Shown: positions 2,183 to 36,229, counted from the first letter of the stretch. The stretch: DNA of 36,402 bases from an uncultured Spirochaetaceae bacterium (GCA_944389075.1 CALXLA010000053.1:1-36402), one strand, 5' to 3'. The notes: generated from the letters alone by a model not told the origin. Program-made: numbers and translations.

Positions 2183-2878
2183 TCAATAAACCTTTGGCGG
2201 TTCGGCCGGTGCATCTTCCGTCACCTTGAAGATCTTCATATGGCCATCAGGCATTACGCCTGATACGCAGATATATCCTGACTTCCGGAACAGCTGCACA
2301 AGATCCTTTGCATACCTTCTGCTTATCCCCTTGTAGCCAGCAATATCCATCACAGTAAAAGAACCGAGTTTCCTCATATGATTCCATGCAGCCTTCACCT
2401 TGCTTTTATGCGGCCGTGCCCGCTTGGCAGAAGGCCTTATAGCAGTATCTCTGGCAAGCATATAGATGCTCTCCTGACCGCCTTTTCTGTATAGGGTCTC
2501 CACAGCCCCGAAAGACTGGAATTCCCTGATGGCATTCCGTACCTGGGGGACAGAGAAGCCTGTCAGTTCCGCAATGCGCCTTGCGGTGAAACGCTTTTCG
2601 ATGCGTATGGCCTTCCAGCATCTGTCAAGAATCACTCCCCTGATGCGGACCTTGGCAGGATCGATGACAACATCATCTCCTTCAATTGAGATTATCCCTT
2701 TTCCAGACAGGGAGATTATCGCGGTTGTGAAGGCAGCCTTCGAAAGGTCCGCAAAGGCCTTTCTTATGGCCTTGCCATCAATCCTCCCGCCAGGACACTT
2801 AATGAGATAAAGCTGCATCTGATAAGTTACGACTGATGTCCCGAACAGATTCTCCCTGTCAGCTGCACTTAATGCCAT
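2183..2878 (-). CDS. Winged-helix/HTH early protein downstream of MuB
   Basis: I place the start at the ATG ending at 2878 (MALSAADRENLFG) because AAGGAGG lies six bases upstream of it; a longer frame starting at 2896 lacks this. The 231-residue product overlaps the end of the MuB gene by 20 bp. Residues about 100-130 (KRFTARRIAELTGFSVPQVRNAIREF) form a clear helix-turn-helix. A second HTH-like stretch, GSFTVMDIAGYKGISRRYAK, lies around 185-205. Two DNA-binding modules suggest a replication or transcription regulator of the early operon. No named family is recognised. Confidence 0.75.
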   Translation of the reverse strand: MALSAADRENLFGTSVVTYQMQLYLIKCPGGRIDGKAIRKAFADLSKAAFTTAIISLSGKGIISIEGDDVVIDPAKVRIRGVILDRCWKAIRIEKRFTARRIAELTGFSVPQVRNAIREFQSFGAVETLYRKGGQESIYMLARDTAIRPSAKRARPHKSKVKAAWNHMRKLGSFTVMDIAGYKGISRRYAKDLVQLFRKSGYICVSGVMPDGHMKIFKVTEDAPAEPPKVY

Positions 2879-3776
2879 CAAGGACCTCCTTGTCAATTCT
2901 GGCGATGCCGTTCATATTCATGATCGAAACGATATGCTGCATATCATTGACGCATACCCTGAAGTCACGGCGGCACATCGATACGAGCTTCTTTGCGATA
3001 TCTATCTCGATATCAAGCCCGCAGGCCTTCTTGTAAAGGGCAATAACAGTGGCCGTATCGATCGGCTTGAATGTGACAACCGGCTTCCGGATCCTCGACT
3101 CGATCCTGTCTGCTTTCTTCACAAGTGATGAGAGGCTTTCCTCACCGACAAGCAGGAGAGGGACCCCTGCGCTCTCATTGAGCGTTCTCAGGTCTTCCAG
3201 GATCGAAAGCGGCATGCGGTCAGCCTCATCGATTATGATCAGCTTGCGGCATACGGAAGCCGCTTCCTCTATGATCTCGATGTTCTTGTAATAAGTCCCC
3301 GATGAACGGCCTACAAGCTCTTCTGCTATCCGTCTGAAGGCAGCAGTACGCGAAAAGCCCATATAGAGGATGTAAACAGCATCCTGATGCTCTACAGCAT
3401 AACGCTTCACGGCTGTTGTCTTGCCATATCCTGCCTTGCCAAGAACCATTCCGATTGACGCATTGAGAAGCGATTCCGGGGCAAGGAGCCCATCTGCGAG
3501 ACCGAAGACCGAGTTGTAGTTATCAGTCCTGATGATTGTCTCCGTATCGATCTCTATCTTCGGCCCTGCAGCCTTTTCTTCCAGGCATTCCTCCGGAAGA
3601 TACCCATTGGCCACAAGATACCTGACAGCCTCCGCTACCTTCTCCTCCCAGTTCGGATAGTCCTTTGATGCTATCCGCGATACCTGAGCCTTAGACCAAC
3701 CCATCTTAGCGCTGATGTCAGACTGCGAAAGCCTTGTCGCTTCCATCAGCTGCGAAAGATCCCTTATTCCATTCAT
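2859..3776 (-). CDS. MuB-type AAA+ ATPase, transposition target-DNA activator
   Basis: A 305-residue protein next to the transposase, in the same order as Mu A-B. It binds target DNA using ATP and delivers it to the transposase, which it also stimulates. Residues 6-40 form an XRE-like helix-turn-helix (LSQSDISAKMGWSKAQVSRI) as in MuB. Walker A GKAGYGKTT is at 113-121 and Walker B LIIIDEAD at 179-186, followed by an arginine-rich sensor region (RIESRIRKP). Length is close to MuB (312). Its ATG overlaps the transposase stop codon (ATGA), implying coupled translation. Confidence 0.92.
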   Translation of the reverse strand: MNGIRDLSQLMEATRLSQSDISAKMGWSKAQVSRIASKDYPNWEEKVAEAVRYLVANGYLPEECLEEKAAGPKIEIDTETIIRTDNYNSVFGLADGLLAPESLLNASIGMVLGKAGYGKTTAVKRYAVEHQDAVYILYMGFSRTAAFRRIAEELVGRSSGTYYKNIEIIEEAASVCRKLIIIDEADRMPLSILEDLRTLNESAGVPLLLVGEESLSSLVKKADRIESRIRKPVVTFKPIDTATVIALYKKACGLDIEIDIAKKLVSMCRRDFRVCVNDMQHIVSIMNMNGIARIDKEVLDGIKCS

Positions 3777-5893
3777 GCTTCACCTCCTGCCTTCATATAG
3801 GCATCCCAATAGTCAGAATTCTCCTTGTATTCCTCTCCCATCCTGTATCGGATGCAGAAATCCTTATCGTTCTCATCCAGCTCGAAATTGCCGATTATCA
3901 TGTCGCAGCACCACTTGAAGCGTGCATAGTCAGACGAGAAGAACGGCCTGTATGGCCTTATCCTCGGAGCAGGCTCAGCCTCCGGAGAGGCAAGCTGCAG
4001 GATCCTCTCATCCTCATCGTGCCTCTCATCCGCCTGGAGAGCCTTGTCAGCATCGATGATTTCCTTTGAAAGCCTTGTCTCCTTCTCTTCAGCCGTTCCT
4101 GGCGAGGCAAGGAGCCTGAAGGCTTCGCGCACTGTCTTCATGCAGCGTCTCTTCCACGCGATGGCATTGGAAAGCTTCTCCTGATCCAGCATTTCGACCG
4201 AGCAGACCGCCCGGAGCGCCCTTACCCTTTTCCCCTTTCCGAGTTCAGGGAAGATAGCATATGCATGGCTCATATCAAGAGGGCTGTACCTGACTTCCAC
4301 GGATTCGCCCTCGTGCAGAGAAAGCCCCACATCGAGAAGATTCCCATCGCGGCTGCGGAGATCCTCACCGATGAAATCGACTCCCTCTACAGTGACACGG
4401 CCCTTCCTGATCTTCGCCTTCTTCCTGGAAAGGAATATGAAGTCAAGATCTGCCCTGTTCTGCGGATACACAGGCTTCCAGCCCCTCTCAAGCCATTCCC
4501 TGACCTTCTCAAGAGGCGACATCCCAAGAGATGAATGCCGAGTGCCCTCATACTCCGCAATGGTCTCGATCATCACCCTGACAAACTCATCCAGCGTCAG
4601 GATCTCGCCATTCCTCTTCTGCCTTTCAAGGACAGCAGATTCCTTCTCTTCCTGGTCTGCGGGACACCCCGGTGTGACTACATGCCCAGGAACGCCCTTT
4701 TCCGCAAGCTTCATCTCGAGAGTGCTGAAGAGCCTCTCTATAGGCTTTGCCTTCGCATTCTTCACCTGGGCATATATCCTCCGGTTCTTGTTTCTCCATG
4801 CCTTCTCATCTGATGCGATATCAACGATATTCCTGTCAGGATCCTCGACAGCATATCTTCCATCGAACATCCTGCTGAGCTCCGAGATATCGAGCATGCT
4901 GCTCTTCCCTCCGGAAACCGCTATGATCTCATCGATCACGGATACCGCAGCATTGGAGCACTCGGACGTTCCGTTATCGTTATATGTCGCCTTGAAGAAC
5001 CCAAAGCGGCAGATAGCCATATAAAGCGCATTGAGGACTGTCTCCGAGCTGTAATCCTCATCGACTGCAATCCCTGCAACGCATCTTGTGGCCGCATCCT
5101 GCCAGACATAGAACGTAGGCCTGAAATAGCGCGGCTTCTCCTTGCTGCTGTCATCGACAACCCAGAAATCCGCGATATGCTGGTCCCCGATAAGAATCGC
5201 GGCAGGCTCGATGGATGACCAGTCCCTCTTGATGTAGAAGAAGTTGTCCAGTGCCCTGTTCCCGCCGGTTGCGTACTGCCGGATCAGCACAGGGATATCC
5301 TTGAGGATGCGGAATGCGGATGACCTTGAGCCTATCTTCCAGTTCCGCCTCTGCGCCTCGCTCTGAAGGGCCTTCCATGCAGCTTCCTTGCTGTCTATGT
5401 TCCTGTCCTTCGCAAGCTGGAGATAATATGAGCGGAGATAGCTGACCGCCTCATCATCCCAGGCCCTGTAGCCGGAAGGCTTCCTGTCGCCAGAGACAAC
5501 GCCATATTCAGAAACTTCCTTTATCGCACGCCTTACCGTCGACTCGGAAAGGCCGAAATACCCCGCCGTCATAGCGACCTTCCTTGATTCAGGGACGTTG
5601 CCGAGGCTATCGGCATACCGCGCGATATTCACCTTCCTGGATTCCCTGCCGGTAAGCTTCCGGCCAAGGATCCCCTCTGCATAGGCAGAAAGCGGGGATG
5701 CTTCTCTTACAGATGGGACCGAAGGCACTGCCGCGACAAGTGCCTTCCATTCAGGAGGAAGCGAATCGGTATCGACCTCGATGCTCCTTCCGTCCTTCTT
5801 CCTTGCCGCGATCTCGCCATTCCTGGCCTTGAGCTGTATTGCCCTCTGGCTCTTACCGACGATCGCAGAAAGCGCCTTCGTATCAATCCACAT
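3773..5893 (-). CDS. MuA-type DDE transposase
   Basis: The start is placed at the ATG ending at 5893 (MWIDTKALSAIVGKS), seven bases after AGGAGG; an upstream in-frame ATG at 5932 lacks a ribosome site. The product is 706 residues (MuA 663). An N-terminal Mu-type winged helix (1-60) precedes helical end-binding domains with HTH character (LSESTVRRAIKEV, about 115-130). The catalytic core has D237 in LIGDQH, D306 in TYNDNGT and E386 in PIERLF, spacing like the MuA DDE triad. The C-terminus has the beta-barrel and basic tail region expected for MuB contact. It cuts and joins prophage ends during integration and replicative transposition. Confidence 0.95.
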   Translation of the reverse strand: MWIDTKALSAIVGKSQRAIQLKARNGEIAARKKDGRSIEVDTDSLPPEWKALVAAVPSVPSVREASPLSAYAEGILGRKLTGRESRKVNIARYADSLGNVPESRKVAMTAGYFGLSESTVRRAIKEVSEYGVVSGDRKPSGYRAWDDEAVSYLRSYYLQLAKDRNIDSKEAAWKALQSEAQRRNWKIGSRSSAFRILKDIPVLIRQYATGGNRALDNFFYIKRDWSSIEPAAILIGDQHIADFWVVDDSSKEKPRYFRPTFYVWQDAATRCVAGIAVDEDYSSETVLNALYMAICRFGFFKATYNDNGTSECSNAAVSVIDEIIAVSGGKSSMLDISELSRMFDGRYAVEDPDRNIVDIASDEKAWRNKNRRIYAQVKNAKAKPIERLFSTLEMKLAEKGVPGHVVTPGCPADQEEKESAVLERQKRNGEILTLDEFVRVMIETIAEYEGTRHSSLGMSPLEKVREWLERGWKPVYPQNRADLDFIFLSRKKAKIRKGRVTVEGVDFIGEDLRSRDGNLLDVGLSLHEGESVEVRYSPLDMSHAYAIFPELGKGKRVRALRAVCSVEMLDQEKLSNAIAWKRRCMKTVREAFRLLASPGTAEEKETRLSKEIIDADKALQADERHDEDERILQLASPEAEPAPRIRPYRPFFSSDYARFKWCCDMIIGNFELDENDKDFCIRYRMGEEYKENSDYWDAYMKAGGEA

Positions 5894-6155
5894 ACAACCG
5901 CCTCCTGCTGAGAAGAGAGAGCTTCCCGTCATCCTCGCAGAGCGGATAGCTGTTCTCTATGGTCCTGATCAGTGCAGTGAGTTCCTTGATCGATATGCCG
6001 GCCTTCCTTGCCAGTTCGCTCTTCCCGATTTCCTTCGGGTAGACAGGTATCTTCGAGGCAAGCCATCTGGCTCTAGGAGATGGGTTCGTGTGGCATCTTC
6101 CGCTGCGTCCCCTATGCTCCCGGAAAGCAAAATCCCTTGTGCATCCTATCTGCAT
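5883..6155 (-). CDS. Small helix-turn-helix early protein
   Basis: A 90-residue protein starting MQIGCTRDFAFREH, chosen because AAGGAGG precedes this ATG by six bases; longer frames upstream overlap the neighbouring gene. The C-terminal half (EIGKSELARKAGISIKELTA) is a helix-turn-helix, and the first half is basic and Cys-containing. The end overlaps the transposase start by 11 bp, so the two are probably coupled. It is not assigned to a family. A role in regulating or assisting transposase is plausible from position only. Confidence 0.65.
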   Translation of the reverse strand: MQIGCTRDFAFREHRGRSGRCHTNPSPRARWLASKIPVYPKEIGKSELARKAGISIKELTALIRTIENSYPLCEDDGKLSLLSRRRLYVD

Positions 6156-27518: not shown

Positions 27519-30500
27519 ATGATTACGGTCAGGATTACAAGGAATATATTCAGCGGCGACTATGAATGCGTAAGGCTCAATGGGACTGTATCCGCATCGG
27601 ATATCCGGGATATGCTGCATATCCCATCAGCACTGCTTTTCAGGGATGGCAAGCCGCTTCTCGATGACGACACAATAAGCGATGACGACTTCATAATCGC
27701 CCAGGTTGTCCCGAAGGGCGTGACGGCAGCTCTTGCTGTCCTTCTTGCCATCTCGATATTCGGCTCCATAGTCGGCACAGTGCTGACGCTGAGCATGCTG
27801 TCGGAAGTGCCGTCTGCAAAGAAGCTTCAGACCAATCCCTCTCTCAGAGGATCCACGAATTCCGCCAGAAAGAATCAGATGCTGCCGATGCTTCTCGGCA
27901 GACACAGAGTCTATCCTGATGTGGCAGCACTCCCCTTCTCTGTCTACAGAAACAATGACCAGTATCTCAGGCAGCTGTTCTGCTTCGGATACAGGAACGC
28001 GAGTATTGACAGATCCACGATAAAGATCGGAGAGACGCTTCTGTCAAAATACAGGGACTACACGCTTGCAGAGGATCCCGAAGATCTCTATAGCCAGCGA
28101 TGCATAGAAAGCGCGATAAGCCTGAAGCTGTCCAATGACGGGGAGCCGGATCCGATCGAAAGGACAACCGCATCGAACACCTGGAAGATCGGCATAGGCA
28201 TCATAGCGCCATCCGGGATAAGCGGCGAAGGAAGCGCCACTGCGGATGTAGGCATAAGGATCGAATATCGGATCTCAGGAAGCGGAAGCTGGATTACGGC
28301 TGCGGAGGAAACGCTTTCCCTGAATACAGAGAAATTCAGGAAGATGTATGAGATCACTCCGGCATCACCTGGGACATTCGATGTAAGGATCACGAGGACG
28401 AACGCAGAAAGCGAAAGCGCATCCGTGATCGATGCAGTCTATCTTGATGTCATGCAGAGCTGGACGCAGGACTCAGAAGGCTCAAAGGCTCCTGTAGATG
28501 GCCCGGAAAGATTCAGCCTCCTTTCTCTTGAGCTCAGGGCTACAGACCAGCTCAACGGCATAATCGATGAGCTCAATGCAGTATGCACGCTCAGAGCAAG
28601 GATTTATAAGGGCACAGGCACAGGTCCTGATACCTGGGAAGAGGGAGACGCTACGAATCCGGCAGCAGTTCTCCTCTATCTCCTTACCGACCAGTATGCC
28701 AACCCATCGCCACTGTCAGATGATGAGATAGTATGGGACGAGTTCGAGGCATTCTACGAGTTCTGTGATGAGCACGGCTTTGAATGCAACGCATATATCA
28801 CATCCGAAGAGTACAGCATCGAGGACATCTGCAGCTATATCGCACAGTCCAGCCTTGCGCAGATAAGGCACGCAGGACGGAAGGTCGGCATAACCATAGA
28901 TGCCGCCGTAAACCATTACACGCAGCTCTTCACCCCGCGCAACGCATGGGATTTCTCCGTCCAGAGGTCGTTCAGCCAGGATATAAGGTATTTCAGGATA
29001 AAATACGTGGATGAATCCCTGGGATACGAGGAAACGGAAAGGACGGTATCCCTCGATGCCCAGGGGAATATAGTCTTTGATGCGGAGATCCCGGAAGATG
29101 AATCCGGAACGGAAATAAGCCTCGTCGGAGTCACGGATCCGGAGCATGCGGCATATGTCGGACGGCAGAGGCTCCGTGCGATATCGAGGCAAAAGAGGAC
29201 CTTCTCATGGACATCAGATATCGAGGGCATCCTCTGTGTCCCTGGTGATGTCGTGCTTCTTGAGCATAGCCAGTTCTCGATCGGTCTTGGCGAAGGCCGG
29301 ATTAAACGCATTATAAGGAACGAAAACGGCATAATAAACGGAATTGAACTGGACTCCGCGATGCCCTTTGAGAGCAGCAAGGTATATTCAGTCATCATAC
29401 GCTCTGGTTCCGCTATATCGGCATCCATCCCCATCGGATCATACTCTGAAGACGGGAAGGCCATCTTCTTCAGCACTCCTCCGCAGAATACCATCAGCAC
29501 AGGGGATCTCTGTGCCATAGGCGAGCTTTCGAAAGAGACGATACCTGTTCAGATCACAGAAATCGAACGCGATGAGAACAGCAACTGCAGAGTCACTGCA
29601 GTGGACTATGATCCAGCTATATATGAGGAAGGAGAGATCCCGCCATATGATCCGGGGATATCAAGGTATCCTGACGCAGGAGACATAGGGACAGGCGCTC
29701 ATCTTCCGGATGGATATGTACCGCCATCGCTTCCAGGCTCAGACGGAGGCGACCCGATGTCTCTCTTCCAGTATTCAGCATCACCTATCGTGCCTCCTGA
29801 TGAGTCATCGTCCCTGATTGTATGGGGAGGGACAGTCATTGCCTGGGGAAGCTCTGCATTCTCGCTCAATCTCGGGGAATGGACTCCGGAGATCCCTGCA
29901 ACGCCTCCGGAAGGAAAGCCATACCTCTGGGAGAAATACTGGAGCTATACGCTCAACAAGTGGCAGATATTCTGCCGCATGTCTGCGCCAGCCCCTGACT
30001 TCACCGTCTCCTTCGTGCCTCAGACATACAGGATGACATCCAGAGGCATTACCAAGGGAGAGAACACCATAAGGGCCATATGCCGGAAGCGAAACACGAC
30101 AGCTCCTGCTGTATGGACAGCAGCCGAGGCTGTATCTCTCTCGTATCCAGCTGAAGGACAGACAGATACCGTGGATATAACAATACCTGAAGGCATAGAG
30201 CTGGCATCCTTCCAGATATCCTGCTATGTGGAATCCGTTGATACGAAGACTTATGAGATATCAGGTGTGCCGGAAGGAAATAAAGAACCTCTGTATCTTG
30301 GGATCTATGAATCTACAGCCCCGCTTCCTGGCAGTACTGCAGAAGGGGATCTGATAGCCGGAGATCATCTGATGATAGAGAATGAGGATGGATCAAGAGA
30401 TCCTTATTACTGGAATGGGACGGCCTGGGTTATCTCTGATGGGAATATGCCTGTCTCATTCGGTTTCAAAGTCCTTCAGGATTCACTCTGGGATGCTGCA

Positions 30501-31517
30501 AATGCACCAGGATCTTCTACTACACTCTCTGCCTTCAATATCTTTGCTGCGAATATGGGAACGAATCTTCTGTTTTCATACTATGCGAAGATAAGGAACT
30601 TGCTTGTAGGAGATGGCTCGCCTTTCAGTTTCGAGGTTTTTGATTATAAGAATGGAAAGAAGGTCACTCCTGTCATACGGGCAAAATTCAATGGCAAAGT
30701 CATATTCCAGATAGTGCCTACATCAGGCAAGGTGTTCTTCGGAGAGCCGGATACAAATACTGACTCCCCTATTTCCGGATTCGTGTATGACCCAGCAGAT
30801 GCTGATTATGGAGCATGCATCAAAAGCAGAAACAAGAATGTAATCATCACTGAAGATGGAAGGCTTATTGCAGACAATGCATCAATCAGAGGGGCAATAG
30901 ATGCAACAGAAGGTTCCTTTAAAGGCCATATAGAAGCCACAAGCGGACTGTTCAAAGGAGAAATCGAAACTCCTGCATTCAGCTCTGAATACGGCACAAC
31001 CGGAAATGTCGAGATATCGTCCAGTGAAATATCAAAAGAAATGGGATTCGATCTTTACACCAAGCTTCACGATAACGGATTGCCGGAGAATACCTATCTG
31101 AGATGCAAGATAAACAATCTTCCAGAAACATATTATATCCAGTATCAGCTTGAATCTGGAGTAGGTACTGTCGGCTCAGGTAATTCGATATACAGATGGA
31201 TGATAAGGTTCTATAACGCGGATTATGAACAAATCGAGCCTGCATCTATAGCAGATGTAACTGGATCAGTGGAAACATACGGCTATCCTCTTCCGCCATC
31301 GATGCAGGTCATATATTACTGGGAATGGATACCTGTATCGCCGCTTGTCGGAAGTGTAAGAACCGGAGGAATTTACTTCACATCACCAGTTACGCTTGAA
31401 GTGGAAACAGGAGGAGAGGGAGTCGTCCTTTTCAAGGACACGCTTCCTATGAGCGATGTCGGGCTTCAGAAAGGCCAGCTTTACTGTGAGAACGGCTTTC
31501 TGAAGATAGTGCTCTGA
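27519..31517 (+). CDS. Central tail tip protein, fused gpI-gpJ type
   Basis: A 1332-residue protein. Residues 1-65 look like the ubiquitin-like gpI domain (GTVSASDIRDMLHIP), and 69-95 are a hydrophobic Gly/Ala helix that gpI proteins carry. The rest is J-like: RKNQMLPMLLGRHRVYPDVA, then the baseplate-hub-like segment and Fn3-like strand regions. Late repeats IRGAIDATEGSFKGHIEATSG resemble the DUF1983-type helix of host-specificity proteins. The last ~400 codons become AT-richer, as is common in receptor-binding parts. It contacts the cell surface. The start has a weak ribosome site. Confidence 0.85.
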   Translation: MITVRITRNIFSGDYECVRLNGTVSASDIRDMLHIPSALLFRDGKPLLDDDTISDDDFIIAQVVPKGVTAALAVLLAISIFGSIVGTVLTLSMLSEVPSAKKLQTNPSLRGSTNSARKNQMLPMLLGRHRVYPDVAALPFSVYRNNDQYLRQLFCFGYRNASIDRSTIKIGETLLSKYRDYTLAEDPEDLYSQRCIESAISLKLSNDGEPDPIERTTASNTWKIGIGIIAPSGISGEGSATADVGIRIEYRISGSGSWITAAEETLSLNTEKFRKMYEITPASPGTFDVRITRTNAESESASVIDAVYLDVMQSWTQDSEGSKAPVDGPERFSLLSLELRATDQLNGIIDELNAVCTLRARIYKGTGTGPDTWEEGDATNPAAVLLYLLTDQYANPSPLSDDEIVWDEFEAFYEFCDEHGFECNAYITSEEYSIEDICSYIAQSSLAQIRHAGRKVGITIDAAVNHYTQLFTPRNAWDFSVQRSFSQDIRYFRIKYVDESLGYEETERTVSLDAQGNIVFDAEIPEDESGTEISLVGVTDPEHAAYVGRQRLRAISRQKRTFSWTSDIEGILCVPGDVVLLEHSQFSIGLGEGRIKRIIRNENGIINGIELDSAMPFESSKVYSVIIRSGSAISASIPIGSYSEDGKAIFFSTPPQNTISTGDLCAIGELSKETIPVQITEIERDENSNCRVTAVDYDPAIYEEGEIPPYDPGISRYPDAGDIGTGAHLPDGYVPPSLPGSDGGDPMSLFQYSASPIVPPDESSSLIVWGGTVIAWGSSAFSLNLGEWTPEIPATPPEGKPYLWEKYWSYTLNKWQIFCRMSAPAPDFTVSFVPQTYRMTSRGITKGENTIRAICRKRNTTAPAVWTAAEAVSLSYPAEGQTDTVDITIPEGIELASFQISCYVESVDTKTYEISGVPEGNKEPLYLGIYESTAPLPGSTAEGDLIAGDHLMIENEDGSRDPYYWNGTAWVISDGNMPVSFGFKVLQDSLWDAANAPGSSTTLSAFNIFAANMGTNLLFSYYAKIRNLLVGDGSPFSFEVFDYKNGKKVTPVIRAKFNGKVIFQIVPTSGKVFFGEPDTNTDSPISGFVYDPADADYGACIKSRNKNVIITEDGRLIADNASIRGAIDATEGSFKGHIEATSGLFKGEIETPAFSSEYGTTGNVEISSSEISKEMGFDLYTKLHDNGLPENTYLRCKINNLPETYYIQYQLESGVGTVGSGNSIYRWMIRFYNADYEQIEPASIADVTGSVETYGYPLPPSMQVIYYWEWIPVSPLVGSVRTGGIYFTSPVTLEVETGGEGVVLFKDTLPMSDVGLQKGQLYCENGFLKIVL

Positions 31518-31576: not shown

Positions 31577-33232
31577 ATGGCTGATTATATAGAAATTGAC
31601 GGACATAAGCTTGATGACGTAGAAGATGCCAGCAAGACACAAGGCACGCCTACCCTATCCGACATGCTTCTTGCCCTCACAATAGGCGAAGATGGGAAGC
31701 TGTCCAGTTTAAAGCATTACACGATAAACACGCTGATATCCACGCTTGGCAAAGTAGCAACTGATGCCGAGGCAGGTGCTGTGGAAGCAAAGACCGCCAT
31801 CGAACAGATGCAGTCAGCTATCACTGAAGCCATAGAAAACTTCAATTCAAAGATTACAAGCGATAATGAAGCATGGGATTCTAAAGTAGAAGATAATAAC
31901 TCAAGCTGGGAATCTCAGGTGGCAGAAGATCTGCAGAGCCTCCAGACTGCGCTTACTAATGCACTTGCAGCCATCGGCCGGACTGATTCTGAAGGAGCAA
32001 GGAAGGCATCGCTTGATGCAATAGTTTTGGCTCTTCAGGGCGCGATTGAGGATATCTCACAGGCCAGATCCGGAGCTCTGGGAGCAATAGGTGAAACCGA
32101 TTCTGAAGGAGCCAGAGGCGCGGCAATCTCAGCCATAGCAACAGCACTTCAGGAAGCGCTTGAAGCCTGGGAATCACAGGTCAATGCGGATAATCAGACT
32201 TTCGACAATAAGGTTACATCGGCCGAGCAGACCATAGATGAAAAAGTCTCTCAGGCAGGTTCTTCTGCAGATGATGCAGCTGCAGCAAAGAATCTTGCAG
32301 AAAGATATGCCAATGCTCCCAAGGATGAGATAGTCGAGACGATAAACGGCGTCAATAAGTTTTCGTCCAGACATTATATGGAGATAGCAGAACAGATTGC
32401 CAACTCACCTCTCGCATCAGAAACAGCGGCAGGAAGGTCAAGGATAACAAGCAATCCTGACTATTCAAGGCCTGCTGATAATACCGACCCTGTGGCGGTA
32501 TCCATAGAGGCTCTGCAGACTGCGAAAACGGCATTGCAAGGATCTATAGGCGATGAGGCTTCTGCAAGAAAGTCTGGGGATAGCAATCTGGCTAATCAGA
32601 TATCCCAGCTAGGAGTTACTGTCACTAATATCAACAGCAATCTGGGTAATGAAACAGTAAACCGGCAGAATGGGGATTCAAACCTTCAGACACAGATCAA
32701 TACAGAAGTCTCGAACAGGCAGAACGCTGATGCACAGCTACAGACGCAGATTAACGAGAGAAGACTTCCGCCTGGGATGATGCTCTGGTACACAGGCCTT
32801 ATAGCTAATGTCCCAGCGGGCTATCTTGTATGCAATGGCCAGGCAGTGTCTAGGGCGACATATGCGGCACTTTTTGCGGTGCTTGGAACGAAGTACGGAG
32901 CAGGTGACGGAAGCACGACGTTCAATGTCCCGAACCTTACTGATGGCAATGGAAGATTCATCCGTGCAGGCTTCTCTGATGACGTTATCGGTACGAAACA
33001 AGCTGATGCGATAAGGAACATTACCGCAAGACTGCATTATGTGATGAGCGACTTTGACACACCAGAAACATCTCCATTCTATACTGCGTCTGCAAGTTCG
33101 ACTGCTGGAGTGACATTCAATGGGTATAACAGACGAGATAACGTAGGAGCATTTAATCTGTCCAGAGCTGTAAACACTGATAGCGAGAACAGACCGTATT
33201 CCTTTGTGGCGTTGCCATTAATAGCGTACTGA
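31577..33232 (+). CDS. Tail fibre with phage collar domain and switchable C-terminus (cassette A expressed)
   Basis: A 551-residue protein. Residues 1 to about 390 are helical repeats (two AIGxTDSEGAR units near 130 and 170, and DSNLQTQIN-type repeats near 370-390). Residues about 393-478 hold a phage tail collar domain (PPGMMLWYTGLIANVPAGY, YAALFAVLGTKYG-GDG-TTFNVPNL). Residues 480-551 are the variable tip: RNITARLHYV to the end SFVALPLIAY. The switch site (33012..33024) sits exactly at the constant-variable boundary, and six silent cassettes follow. The start has no clear ribosome site. It would determine host range. Confidence 0.9.
   Translation: MADYIEIDGHKLDDVEDASKTQGTPTLSDMLLALTIGEDGKLSSLKHYTINTLISTLGKVATDAEAGAVEAKTAIEQMQSAITEAIENFNSKITSDNEAWDSKVEDNNSSWESQVAEDLQSLQTALTNALAAIGRTDSEGARKASLDAIVLALQGAIEDISQARSGALGAIGETDSEGARGAAISAIATALQEALEAWESQVNADNQTFDNKVTSAEQTIDEKVSQAGSSADDAAAAKNLAERYANAPKDEIVETINGVNKFSSRHYMEIAEQIANSPLASETAAGRSRITSNPDYSRPADNTDPVAVSIEALQTAKTALQGSIGDEASARKSGDSNLANQISQLGVTVTNINSNLGNETVNRQNGDSNLQTQINTEVSNRQNADAQLQTQINERRLPPGMMLWYTGLIANVPAGYLVCNGQAVSRATYAALFAVLGTKYGAGDGSTTFNVPNLTDGNGRFIRAGFSDDVIGTKQADAIRNITARLHYVMSDFDTPETSPFYTASASSTAGVTFNGYNRRDNVGAFNLSRAVNTDSENRPYSFVALPLIAY
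33012..33024 (+). repeat. Shufflon crossover site 1 (inside expressed fibre)
   Basis: TAAGGAACATTAC, containing the core AGGAACATTA shared by all seven sites. The frame is AGG-AAC-ATT-A, encoding RNI[T/S/R]. It lies at codons 479-483 of the fibre. Confidence 0.85.
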
Positions 33233-33244
33233 AAGGAACATTAC
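33232..33244 (+). repeat. Shufflon crossover site 2
   Basis: AAAGGAACATTAC starts at the last base of the fibre stop codon. It leads into silent cassette B in the same frame phase as site 1. Confidence 0.85.
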
Positions 33245-33446
33245 TGGAGGTATCACTAGAGGGTTGTTTGATGTTGCAAGCGGAAGTGGTGCATTTTCTT
33301 CATCATTCAATACCGATGGTTTTGGAGCTGGGACAAATAGTGGAATCAAGAAAAAGGATGTCTCTTTCAATGCTTCGAGAGTTGTCACAACCGCTTCTGA
33401 AGTGAGACCCTATTCTTTTGTCGCTCTTCCATTAATCGCTTACTAA
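33234..33446 (+). other. Silent tail-fibre C-terminal cassette B
   Basis: From the AGG of site 2 the frame encodes 70 residues, RNITGGITRGLFDVASGSG to a SFVALPLIAY end, with a stop. It has no start codon or ribosome site. The first four and last ~20 residues match the expressed tip; the middle differs completely (FSSSFNTDGFGAG). It can be expressed only after recombination. Confidence 0.85.
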
Positions 33447-33447
33447 G

Positions 33448-33460
33448 TAAGGAACATTAC
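33448..33460 (+). repeat. Shufflon crossover site 3
   Basis: TAAGGAACATTAC one base after the stop codon of cassette B. It leads into cassette C. Confidence 0.85.
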
Positions 33461-33680
33461 AGGCTGGTTCTCCATCGACGACTTTGCAACAGGTACTACA
33501 GATACGGATTATAGCGGAGCGTTTTACAGGGAAAGCTCTTCATATGATATAAAAAGTGTAAGAAGCAATGCCGCTAGTGGTGATTATTACAGGATGCGAT
33601 TCGAGGCATCCAGAGTCGTAGAAACAGATAATGAAATTCGACCATATAGCTTCATCGCTCTCCCATTAATAGCTTATTAA
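33450..33680 (+). other. Silent tail-fibre C-terminal cassette C
   Basis: Encodes 76 residues, RNITGWFSIDDFATGTTD to EIRPYSFIALPLIAY and TAA. There is no start codon. Its stop lies within the palindrome-like string TTAATAGCTTATTAA, which it shares with the end of cassette D on the other strand. Confidence 0.85.
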
Positions 33681-33884
33681 TGAAAGTGCTATAAAACTGT
33701 ATGGACGGACTTCGGAAGCCGTCGGAACGACACGAGATGCATTCATGTATACATTGTATTTCTTTATTGCAGCTCCTCCACTGCCGATTTCTCCGTATGT
33801 AGACGAGAGATAGAAAGCTCCTGATGCATATTCTTCATCACCCCAAGCTCCGGAACATGTGTCTATCCGACCGCTAATGTTCCT
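33666..33884 (-). other. Silent tail-fibre C-terminal cassette D (reverse)
   Basis: Reverse-strand frame from the AGG of site 4 encodes 72 residues, RNISGRIDTCSGAWGDEEY to RPYSFIALSLISY and TAA. It overlaps cassette C tail to tail by 15 bases. It would be joined in frame to the fibre by a single inversion between sites 1 and 4. Confidence 0.85.
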
Positions 33885-33886
33885 TA
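33874..33886 (-). repeat. Shufflon crossover site 4 (reverse)
   Basis: Reverse strand TAAGGAACATTAG. Its TAA is the stop codon of cassette E, and its AGG starts cassette D. Inverted relative to site 1. Confidence 0.85.
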
Positions 33887-34102
33887 GTAAGCAATGAGTG
33901 GTAACGCAATGAAAGAATATGGCCTTACCTCCGTCGCTGTTGGAACAGATCTAGAGGCTGAGAATGATGTTCTGTAATCTCTAGTACCTGCATTGCCTCC
34001 AGTCATTCCTCTTGTAGTATTACTTGCTCTGTAAAAAGCTCCGGATATGCCATAGTCTTCATCAGAACCCCAGACCATGGTAGTTGCTCCGCTAATGTTC
34101 CT
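33884..34102 (-). other. Silent tail-fibre C-terminal cassette E (reverse)
   Basis: Reverse-strand frame of 72 residues, RNISGATTMVWGSDEDYG to EVRPYSFIALPLIAY, ending in the TAA of site 4. The middle (AFYRASNTTRGMTGGN) partly resembles cassettes C and D in the SGAFY segment. There is no start of its own. Confidence 0.85.
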
Positions 34103-34104
34103 AA
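34092..34104 (-). repeat. Shufflon crossover site 5 (reverse, one-base variant)
   Basis: Reverse strand TTAGGAACATTAG. It keeps the core AGGAACATTA but has T-T before the core rather than T-A. It is the only silent-cassette site not preceded immediately by a stop codon of a neighbouring reading frame. Confidence 0.8.
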
Positions 34105-34116
34105 GAATCTATAAAC

Positions 34117-34150
34117 TATACCATTGGCTAGTATACTAGTTGCTGGTATA
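34117..34150. promoter_or_regulatory. Imperfect 34-bp inverted repeat before the chaperone gene
   Basis: TATACCA at the left and TGGTATA at the right surround a perfect 12-bp palindrome CTAGTATACTAG (34128..34139). It lies eight bp before the fibre chaperone ATG, which lacks a ribosome site. It contains a -10-like TATACT. It may be a promoter-operator or a second recombination site; the architecture (paired arms around a short centre) fits either. Confidence 0.5.
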
Positions 34151-34158
34151 CTTTTCTC

Positions 34159-34737
34159 ATGAATACAAAGATTTGCTACGGCTACAATAACGACAATGTA
34201 TACAGCGGAACGGAGCTTGCGTTTGAAGACCCAATGGAAGAAGGGAATTATCCTCTTCCGGCTAATGCCACCTTTGTTGAGCCACCAGAGCTTGAAGCCC
34301 CATACGTGAATGTATGGGATGGTGAGAAGTGGGTAGCCACAGAAGACCACAGACAGCACCTTGATTCCACAGGCACGATGGCTGGCGGAACGCCTTACTG
34401 GCTTCCAGCAGAAGGTGATAACTTTTACTCGGAGCCACGCTATATGAAAGAGCTTGGATCTCTGCCAGAAGGAGCTGTAACCACAAGGCCAGCAAAGACT
34501 GCTGAAGAGCTTCAGAAGGAACAGCTGACAGAGGCAATCTACGAGTCACAGGCAACGCTGTCTGAGACAGATTACAGGGTAATCAAGTTCATGGATAAGT
34601 ACATCCAGACTCATCCAGAAGCCCTTGCCGAGTTTGAGGCTGAATACCCTGATACGCTCGAAAAGAGACAGGACGCCAGAGATGCTATCAACGGAGCACA
34701 AGCTCAGGCAGAGACTGCCGGCATTAACCTCTCGTAA
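34159..34737 (+). CDS. Tail fibre assembly chaperone inside the invertible array
   Basis: A 192-residue protein. Residues 1-65 (YNVYSG-type start, PMEEGNYPLPANATFVEPPELEAPYVNVWDGEKW) match the pattern of tail fibre assembly proteins (Mu gpU, lambda Tfa), in which a P-x-N-x-T-PP motif precedes W-D-G-x-W. The C-terminal half is helical and acidic. The stop TAA is the first codon of crossover site 6. No ribosome site is seen at the ATG. Because recombination sites lie on both sides, inversion between sites 1 and 7 would flip it. Confidence 0.8.
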   Translation: MNTKICYGYNNDNVYSGTELAFEDPMEEGNYPLPANATFVEPPELEAPYVNVWDGEKWVATEDHRQHLDSTGTMAGGTPYWLPAEGDNFYSEPRYMKELGSLPEGAVTTRPAKTAEELQKEQLTEAIYESQATLSETDYRVIKFMDKYIQTHPEALAEFEAEYPDTLEKRQDARDAINGAQAQAETAGINLS

Positions 34738-34747
34738 GGAACATTAG
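34735..34747 (+). repeat. Shufflon crossover site 6
   Basis: TAAGGAACATTAG, whose TAA is the stop codon of the chaperone gene. It leads into cassette F on the plus strand. Confidence 0.85.
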
Positions 34748-34955
34748 AGGCGATTTCCCATTTGCAACCAGAGAAACAAACAATGACTGGGGTGCAAGCG
34801 GTGCTATAAAACAATACGGTTCAATGGAAAACACGACTCGCTTCGGTGGTTCTGAGAATGGATATAGATACTATTTTGATGCATCCGGCTACGTTTCCAC
34901 GGCTTCAGAGAATCGCCCTTGCTCCTTTGTTGCACTTCCGCTAATAGCTTATTAA
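34737..34955 (+). other. Silent tail-fibre C-terminal cassette F
   Basis: Encodes 72 residues, RNIRGDFPFATRETNND to ENRPCSFVALPLIAY and TAA. It has an Arg at the fourth position and GYVST where the others have SRVVT-type residues. There is no start codon. It overlaps cassette G tail to tail. Confidence 0.85.
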
Positions 34956-35156
34956 TGGAAGTGCTATGAATGAGTATGGCCTATTCTCGGTGGAAGTAGT
35001 AACGACTCTGGAAGCGTTGAAAGATATGCTTGTCTTTGGATTACCAGAGTTTGTGTTCCCCCAATTATTGCTTGATGCATTTCTGGTAAAAGCCCCAGAT
35101 GCTACGACTTCGTTGGTATTGAGACCAAGATTGCTTAAGCTTGCAGTAATGTTCCT
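34941..35156 (-). other. Silent tail-fibre C-terminal cassette G (reverse)
   Basis: Reverse-strand frame of 71 residues, RNITASLSNLGLNTNEVV to ENRPYSFIALPLISY and TAG. It begins at site 7, directly downstream of the recombinase stop, and shares the inverted TAATAGCTTATTAA junction with cassette F, similar to the C/D junction. Confidence 0.85.
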
Positions 35157-35158
35157 TA
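35146..35158 (-). repeat. Shufflon crossover site 7 (reverse, outermost)
   Basis: Reverse strand TAAGGAACATTAC. Its TAA is the stop codon of the recombinase gene and its AGG starts cassette G. This is the outer boundary of the shufflon. With site 1 it encloses about 2.1 kb. Confidence 0.85.
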
Positions 35159-35929
35159 CCAGTCCACGATCTGGCTAATCCTTCGCCTCATGCCTTTGCT
35201 GCTTTTTCGCAGATACCGCATGGTCGTCTTGATGGATGCATGCCCCAAAAGCTTCTGTAGGAATTGGAGGTCTTTGCACTTCTCATATACTCTCCGTGCA
35301 AAGAAAGCCCTGAAAGCATGCGGGTGCATAGGTTCCTTCGGTAGTCTGTACCTGACAGCAAGCCGATGCAGATATGATCTTATATATCGCTGATCATGTT
35401 TAATAATCCTACCATCCTTGAGAAAGTGCTCGATATCCTTCCTGAGCGATGCAGAGAACCAGACACGACGGACCTTATCGCCTTTGCCGATGATGTCTAT
35501 ATAGCCCTGCCTGATATGCCATGCCTCTATCTGTATGGCTTCGGATATCCTGACTCCGGTACATGCAAGCACCTTGATGATGCAGTACCATTCATGGTTC
35601 TTATCTTCCAGAAGCCCTTCCATAAGCCGCTTATACATGGCAGGCGTGAGTTCGTCATCGACATAATCCGGCACATCCACTTTCAAAGGCTTCAGACGGA
35701 TATCAAGGCCAAGGCATTCTGCATATTTATTGAGCGCATGAATTCTGAGTGAAACAGTACCAGCCGACACTCTTCCAGTCTCAGCTTCCTTCCAAGAACA
35801 GAGGTCTGGGATTGTCATCTTATAGCCCTGTGCCAGATAGTGTCTTACTGATGCAATATAAGAAACAACAGTTGCCTGAGAATAACCTTTGGCCTTGAGC
35901 CATGATTCGAATTTTTCAATCTTTGTCAT
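35156..35929 (-). CDS. Tyrosine recombinase, probable tail-fibre shufflase
   Basis: A 257-residue protein. An N-terminal SAM-like core-binding domain (2-75, WLKAKGYSQATVVSYIASVRHYL) is followed by the catalytic domain with all key residues: Arg127 (CTGVRISEA), Lys149 (GKGDK), His204 and Arg207 (PHAFRAFF), His230 (LLGHASIKTT) and nucleophile Tyr239 (TMRYL). Its stop codon is part of crossover site 7, so gene and array are physically linked. MuA does the integration, so this enzyme is free to act as a shufflase like Rci. The start has only a poor ribosome site, which may keep expression low. Confidence 0.88.
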   Translation of the reverse strand: MTKIEKFESWLKAKGYSQATVVSYIASVRHYLAQGYKMTIPDLCSWKEAETGRVSAGTVSLRIHALNKYAECLGLDIRLKPLKVDVPDYVDDELTPAMYKRLMEGLLEDKNHEWYCIIKVLACTGVRISEAIQIEAWHIRQGYIDIIGKGDKVRRVWFSASLRKDIEHFLKDGRIIKHDQRYIRSYLHRLAVRYRLPKEPMHPHAFRAFFARRVYEKCKDLQFLQKLLGHASIKTTMRYLRKSSKGMRRRISQIVDW

Positions 35930-36224: not shown

Positions 36225-36229
36225 ATGGA
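36225..36229. repeat. Target site duplication, right copy (ATGGA)
   Basis: Identical to 123..127. The match stops exactly at the TG/CA prophage termini on both sides. Confidence 0.9.

Follow-up and report, generated by a model that had tools for sequence, protein, structure and literature searches.

A probable inversion-only shufflon of tail-fibre tips in a transposable prophage of an uncultured Spirochaetaceae bacterium

The DNA analysed here (the window) is a whole contig of 36,402 nt from an uncultured Spirochaetaceae bacterium (GCA_944389075.1 CALXLA010000053.1:1-36402), and it contains one complete Mu-like prophage. Towards one end of this prophage, the constant part of a tail-fibre gene is followed by an array of seven tip cassettes, with a tail-fibre assembly gene among them and a tyrosine recombinase gene at the far edge. 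The features of the array are:

31577-33013, plus strand: constant part of the tail fibre, 479 codons, with a tail collar domain (PF07484 Collar, E 2.4e-19; phrog tail fibre)
33014-33232, plus strand: tip A, joined to the fibre in the present arrangement, starting at site 1 (33014-33023)
33234-33446, plus strand: tip B, starting at site 2 (33234-33243)
33450-33680, plus strand: tip C, starting at site 3 (33450-33459)
33666-33884, minus strand: tip D, starting at site 4 (33875-33884, minus), tail-to-tail with C
33884-34102, minus strand: tip E, starting at site 5 (34093-34102, minus), its stop codon overlapping the flank of site 4
34159-34737, plus strand: tail-fibre assembly (chaperone) gene (phrog_105 tail fibre assembly, E 1.4e-8); the outward-facing sites 5 and 6 bound its separate segment
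34737-34955, plus strand: tip F, starting at site 6 (34737-34746)
34941-35156, minus strand: tip G, starting at site 7 (35147-35156, minus), tail-to-tail with F
35156-35929, minus strand: tyrosine recombinase (predicted invertase), 257 aa, XerC-like (PF00589, E 5e-20), its stop codon inside site 7

Each cassette starts at an exact copy of the same 10-mer, AGGAACATTA. The seven copies (33014, 33234, 33450 and 34737 on the plus strand; 33875, 34093 and 35147 on the minus strand) all lie within 33014-35156, and the rest of the 36.4 kb window has none. By chance, 0.0025 copies would be expected on average, as estimated from dinucleotide shuffles of the 2.2 kb region, and across 100 such shuffles no 10-mer of any kind occurred more than twice. 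Site 1 falls at codon 480 of a 551-residue fibre, the sole complete fibre gene, which carries tip A. All seven tips are open, with lengths from A to G of 72, 70, 76, 72, 72, 72 and 71 residues; they begin RNI[T/S/R] and end in variants of SF[IV]AL[PS]LI[AS]Y, and the other six are 33-41% identical to tip A. Over their last 14 codons the tips differ at the first, second and third positions in 28, 13 and 63% of comparisons, a skew that reflects protein-level selection on the cassette ends, whereas the ten site bases are invariant in seven of seven copies, which reflects a constraint at the DNA level on the cassette starts. The coding ends of the C/D pair (33666-33680) and of the F/G pair (34941-34955) overlap in antisense by exactly 15 nt each. 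An AlphaFold prediction of the collar and tip (36 rows) reached a pLDDT of 58, too poor to use, and a sequence search of the PDB matched the fibre to a long tail fibre in the collar region only.

The recombinase is of full length. Its catalytic residues (R127, K149/K152, H204, R207, H230 and Y239) are invariant among relatives, and its matches in the PDB are XerC, XerD, XerA, XerH and other tyrosine recombinases. The locus has the anatomy of a shufflon: at least three short identical sites in both orientations, each starting a C-terminal cassette, with one cassette joined to a constant gene and a dedicated recombinase gene adjoining the array, as it does in relatives. An earlier, sequence-only reading of this stretch had described the seven sites and seven tips of 70-76 residues, the complete recombinase directly at the outer site and a multi-tip fibre shufflon within a Mu-like prophage, and on each of these points our analysis agrees with it. 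That reading made no mention of the assembly gene inside the array or of the stop codons formed by the sites.

How the array would work can be proposed from its layout. The recombinase would pair two opposed sites of 10-12 bp and invert the DNA between them, and a cassette landing behind site 1 would be fused in frame to the 479-codon constant fibre. If the side of a site that holds a cassette start is called R and the other side L, L ends would be found on the constant fibre and on the recombinase, at either end of the assembly segment, and at the 3' termini of A, B and E. The order of the array would then read: fibre constant part (L), A (R-L), B (R-L), CD (R-R), E (L-R as placed), assembly gene (L-L), FG (R-R) and recombinase (L). 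Each inversion joins L to R; therefore what comes after the fibre is always a tip and cannot be the assembly gene or the recombinase gene. The assembly gene, on its L-L segment, could take either orientation and would stay in the array. An inversion-only search from the present state finds 1,920 arrangements in which all seven tips are reachable, D, E and G coming to the fibre by one inversion and B, C and F by two.

The sites also serve as gene ends. The site TAAGGAACATTA supplies the TAA stop codon of the recombinase, of the assembly gene and of tip E, which read it in a frame other than that of the fibre; in the fibre frame the same site reads ATA-AGG-AAC-ATT and is open. These three genes thus end correctly whatever is joined behind them. 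In Mu, too, assembly genes sit within the invertible region. Homologues of the assembly gene are found within the arrays of four relatives (L041, L084, L043 and L044) and next to the recombinase in L087. Just upstream of the gene, on the same segment, lies a promoter-like TTGGCT-17-TATACT with TG (34124-34152, plus strand), a weak candidate in that matches of this kind are no commoner in the region than expected by chance.

Relatives of the array were gathered by genus and family searches. Recombinases about 49-69% identical to that of the window adjoin arrays of the same design with diverged cores (GGGACATT, GAGACATT, GAGGCATT), and the recombinase gene stands at the edge of every array whose edge is visible. 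Array sizes vary, with 10 cassettes in L041, 8 in L044, 7 in L046/L084 and about 12 sites in L057 (interrupted in L088 by the transposase-like frames noted below). The largest array, L058 (6755-11631; G055:C3, reversed), has at least 21 tip cassettes with the core TGAGGCATT and one recombinase, and the TGA stop of most of its cassettes belongs to the site. To our knowledge, this is bigger than any known shufflon. There is also a second clade of recombinases, L050-L054, with about 30% identity; here too the gene ends right against a fibre-tip cassette, of the GYITLPSG type, and the sites are repeated. In L054 the same contig carries a MuA 71% identical to that of the window and a J protein 65% identical, and therefore similar transposable phages carry either recombinase module.

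Several of these relatives bear signs of rearrangement at their sites. The flanks of L050 and L051 are collinear, with 88.6% and 91.7% identity, while the segments between the fibre site and the recombinase site are inverted, the breakpoints falling in the two outer sites. In the window and in L041 the assembly gene has opposite orientations with respect to the recombinase, and L044, L084 and L043 are oriented as L041. Two prophages of one genome, G008 (contigs C6/C18 versus C31), have homologous cassettes at different positions. Contigs also end inside arrays at fixed distances from a site core: L060 and L062 stop 2 nt past one, L058 and L053 exactly 77 nt from one, and L041, whose public name carries k127, exactly 127 nt from one. 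The terminal 77 nt of L058 start at the site core and recur elsewhere in the same contig, and those of contigs C6 and C18 of G008 are identical to each other and start two bases before a core. We read these ends as forks in the k-mer graph, where the sample holds two or more partners for one half of a site, which is strong but indirect evidence of movement.

Taken with the observed anatomy, the coding constraint, the transposable prophage and the rearrangement at equivalent sites in relatives, the most probable reading, and one that we hold with high confidence, is that of an inversion-only shufflon by which a temperate phage changes the receptor-binding tip of its tail fibre. The array is very likely a real and functional shufflon. 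The recombinase would act on these seven sites and would avoid deletion, and the tips would probably differ in the receptor that they bind.

A number of points weigh against this reading. All the evidence of movement, strong but indirect, comes from relatives and none from the window's own phage, which is seen in one arrangement only, in one assembly. L050 and L051, with their inverted array, fall in the clade of recombinases further from that of the window (about 30% identity) and have a different site sequence. The contigs are metagenome assemblies, in which duplicated cassette halves could likewise break the assembly at a site, and L045, from an IDBA assembly, ends 96 nt from a core, which is only compatible with a fork. 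In L042 and L060 there is no site directly behind the recombinase. Finally, receptor binding by the tips is deduced from their position in the fibre.

Among the alternatives, the one that survives best is that the shufflon is real and now frozen here, with the recombinase or sites inactive, or off in lysogeny, so that only tip A is made. The single unbroken arrangement of the window, while the contigs of several relatives break at their sites, would fit such a state, as would the interrupted recombinase of one relative (G008 C31). However, the recombinase of the window is full length with all catalytic residues, its sites are perfect and its seven tips are open, and we regard a frozen array as unlikely.

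A second alternative takes the recombinase for the integrase of the prophage, the fibre fragments for decayed remnants of duplication and the 10-mer for a conserved protein motif. Tyrosine recombinases of prophages are usually integrases, and the spare cassettes are indeed incomplete genes. The prophage, however, is a transposable one, with the following features outside the array:

128-36224, strand not assigned: complete Mu-like transposable prophage, 36,097 nt, with inverted termini TGTACAATCCC / TGTTGAATCCC
2859-3776, minus strand: MuB-type transposition ATPase (phrog_296, E 1.1e-34)
3773-5932, minus strand: MuA-type transposase (phrog_310, E 8.7e-56; Pfam Mu-transpos_C)
27519-31517, plus strand: tail tip / central fibre J-like protein (phrog_31, E 9.8e-59)

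The prophage is flanked by a 5-bp target duplication, ATGGA, at 123-127 and 36225-36229, and repeated ATCCCA-n-TTGA-like motifs lie inside both of its ends. MuA and MuB, the end motifs and the target duplication are those of a transposable Mu-like phage. With MuA/MuB, transposase-type inverted termini and the 5-bp duplication in place, a role as integrase is needless for the tyrosine recombinase, which is not the integrase of this prophage. Decay is contradicted by the cassettes, which lack stops and have a strong third-position bias. A mere protein motif is at odds with the contrast between the site, whose seven copies share one DNA sequence, and the protein end, which is just as conserved but varies freely in its codons. 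Moreover, the closest plasmid relatives of the recombinase are recombinases near hsdS genes, which were present at five of the five annotated plasmid loci examined. We therefore consider this alternative very improbable. The virion itself does not seem to have Mu's own tail: matches to a J-like tip, a tape measure and an SPP1-type portal suggest a siphovirus-like tail (no systematic search for a sheath was made).

Least credible of all is homologous recombination between cassettes as the main source of variation, with the sites as incidental short homology: mosaic and near-duplicate cassettes do occur (a tandem pair in L041 is 84% identical, and halves are shared in L058), but identity at the sites extends over just 10-14 nt, too short for ordinary homologous recombination, the breakpoints fall at sites and a recombinase stands at the array edge. 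A diversity-generating retroelement was also considered and set aside, as the cassettes differ along their whole length and start at defined points bounded by sites (reverse transcriptase was not searched for).

The shufflon reading invites comparison with known systems. The R64 shufflon, in which Rci exchanges PilV tips, shares multiple inversion, tip cassettes and a tyrosine recombinase at the edge with the present array. It differs in that it serves a plasmid pilus and not a phage, and in its enzyme: Rci has 384 aa, and in a pairwise BLASTP comparison with the window recombinase it gave an E value of 0.45 with no alignment beyond a 46-residue motif. The recombinase is not Rci-like. The Mu G segment (Gin), P1 (Cin), p15B (Min) and FRphi (PMC13418256) likewise swap phage fibre C-termini by inversion, but with serine recombinases; the FRphi tail-fibre shufflon has three tips, and related loci have up to six (PMC13418256).

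The closest likeness in design is to the Rin shufflon of Bifidobacterium prophages (PMC6109161, 2018) and Eggerthella lenta prophages (PMC8778435, 2022). In both Rin and the present array, a temperate phage carries the constant gene of a receptor-binding protein at one edge, small cassettes for the C terminus that lie in either orientation, one short asymmetric repeat ahead of each cassette (11 bp / 8 bp in Rin) and, against the outer site at the far edge, a tyrosine recombinase without an arm-binding domain. The window thus has the Rin-type layout of fibre tip cassettes, a single short asymmetric repeat each and an armless recombinase at the far edge. Rin already joins a phage fibre switch to a tyrosine recombinase, and the novelty that the sequence-only reading implied for this combination does not stand. 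The two systems differ in recombinase lineage. The present one also belongs to a transposable phage of a spirochaete, has a fibre-assembly gene within the array and, in one relative, reaches 21 cassettes. For a direct comparison of the enzymes, we looked for loci in which the published 11-bp repeat occurs twice at the spacing of cassettes, which led to L117. This locus has four copies of the repeat, two per orientation, with a tyrosine recombinase against the outer copy, and we take it to be a Rin locus by its repeat and layout. Its recombinase matches that of the window over a 47-residue motif only, so that close homology to Rin is lacking, and is placed outside the window's group in the tree. 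On these sequence comparisons, the design is that of Rin and the enzyme is of a different lineage.

The nearest named relative of the recombinase is instead PsrA, with 33% identity across 98-100% of its length, nearer than host Xer, Rin or Rci. Among plasmid records, the best matches are 32-34% identical over the full length, and one of them is annotated PsrA. PsrA and the HsdS invertases (cod locus, Streptococcus pneumoniae; PMC4948785, PMC7096588) are tyrosine recombinases of 257-265 aa that also act on short (15 bp) inverted repeats and fuse alternative gene halves, and PsrA inverts hsdS DNA in vitro (PMC7096588). They differ in what they shuffle, the specificity genes of type I restriction systems where the present array has fibre tips, and in that longer repeats are used too. 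In our trees the fibre recombinases form their own clades, with weak support for the deep branch order. No site array was found at L048/L049, whose recombinases group with the hsdS-linked ones. A search of IMG/VR with the single sequence returned no close relatives of the recombinase, and an alignment search gave two distant matches, neither with a comparable array. A literature search for shufflons in spirochaetes, with most subscription journals outside its scope, turned up only a genome-wide survey.

The new elements are the lineage of the recombinase, the occurrence in a transposable phage and in this host phylum, the segment with the chaperone gene, a site that itself terminates genes, and the sizes that arrays reach in relatives. 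We lean, by a modest degree, towards the broader hypothesis that fibre shufflons arose in gut-spirochaete phages independently of the Rin systems, through the recruitment of recombinases related to HsdS invertases, and possibly did so twice (two separate clades, which replace one another in otherwise similar transposable phages). In this view the sites terminate genes by themselves, a chaperone segment travels with the array, and the number of tips reaches at least 21. If so, phages have come to the same answer to receptor change, shuffled fibre tips, by way of tyrosine recombinases from different lineages. The natural pairs of sites and recombinases, in which the sites have diverged together, would be useful for asking how a tyrosine invertase avoids deletion between direct repeats, a question that the work on Rin left open. 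They also carry a warning that metagenome assemblies break at such loci.

Some further observations concern individual relatives. Two phage records, L092 (MT836828.1) and L066 (IMG/VR), have recombinases of the same broad group, with no clear site array nearby. In L084 (7155-7917; G008:C31) the shufflon recombinase is split into two overlapping frames, and that array may be frozen. Transposase-like frames, apparently an insertion element, interrupt the shufflon array of L088 (16097-18430; G056:C1). In L042 (1-2000; G045:C118) a recombinase 69% identical to that of the window is followed by a small lipoprotein-like gene and by cassettes of about 100 codons with the repeat AATACCGCTTCA. The first 130 nt of this contig repeat, exactly and in inverted orientation, the end of the lipoprotein-like gene, and another array, with no collar fibre in view, may exist there.

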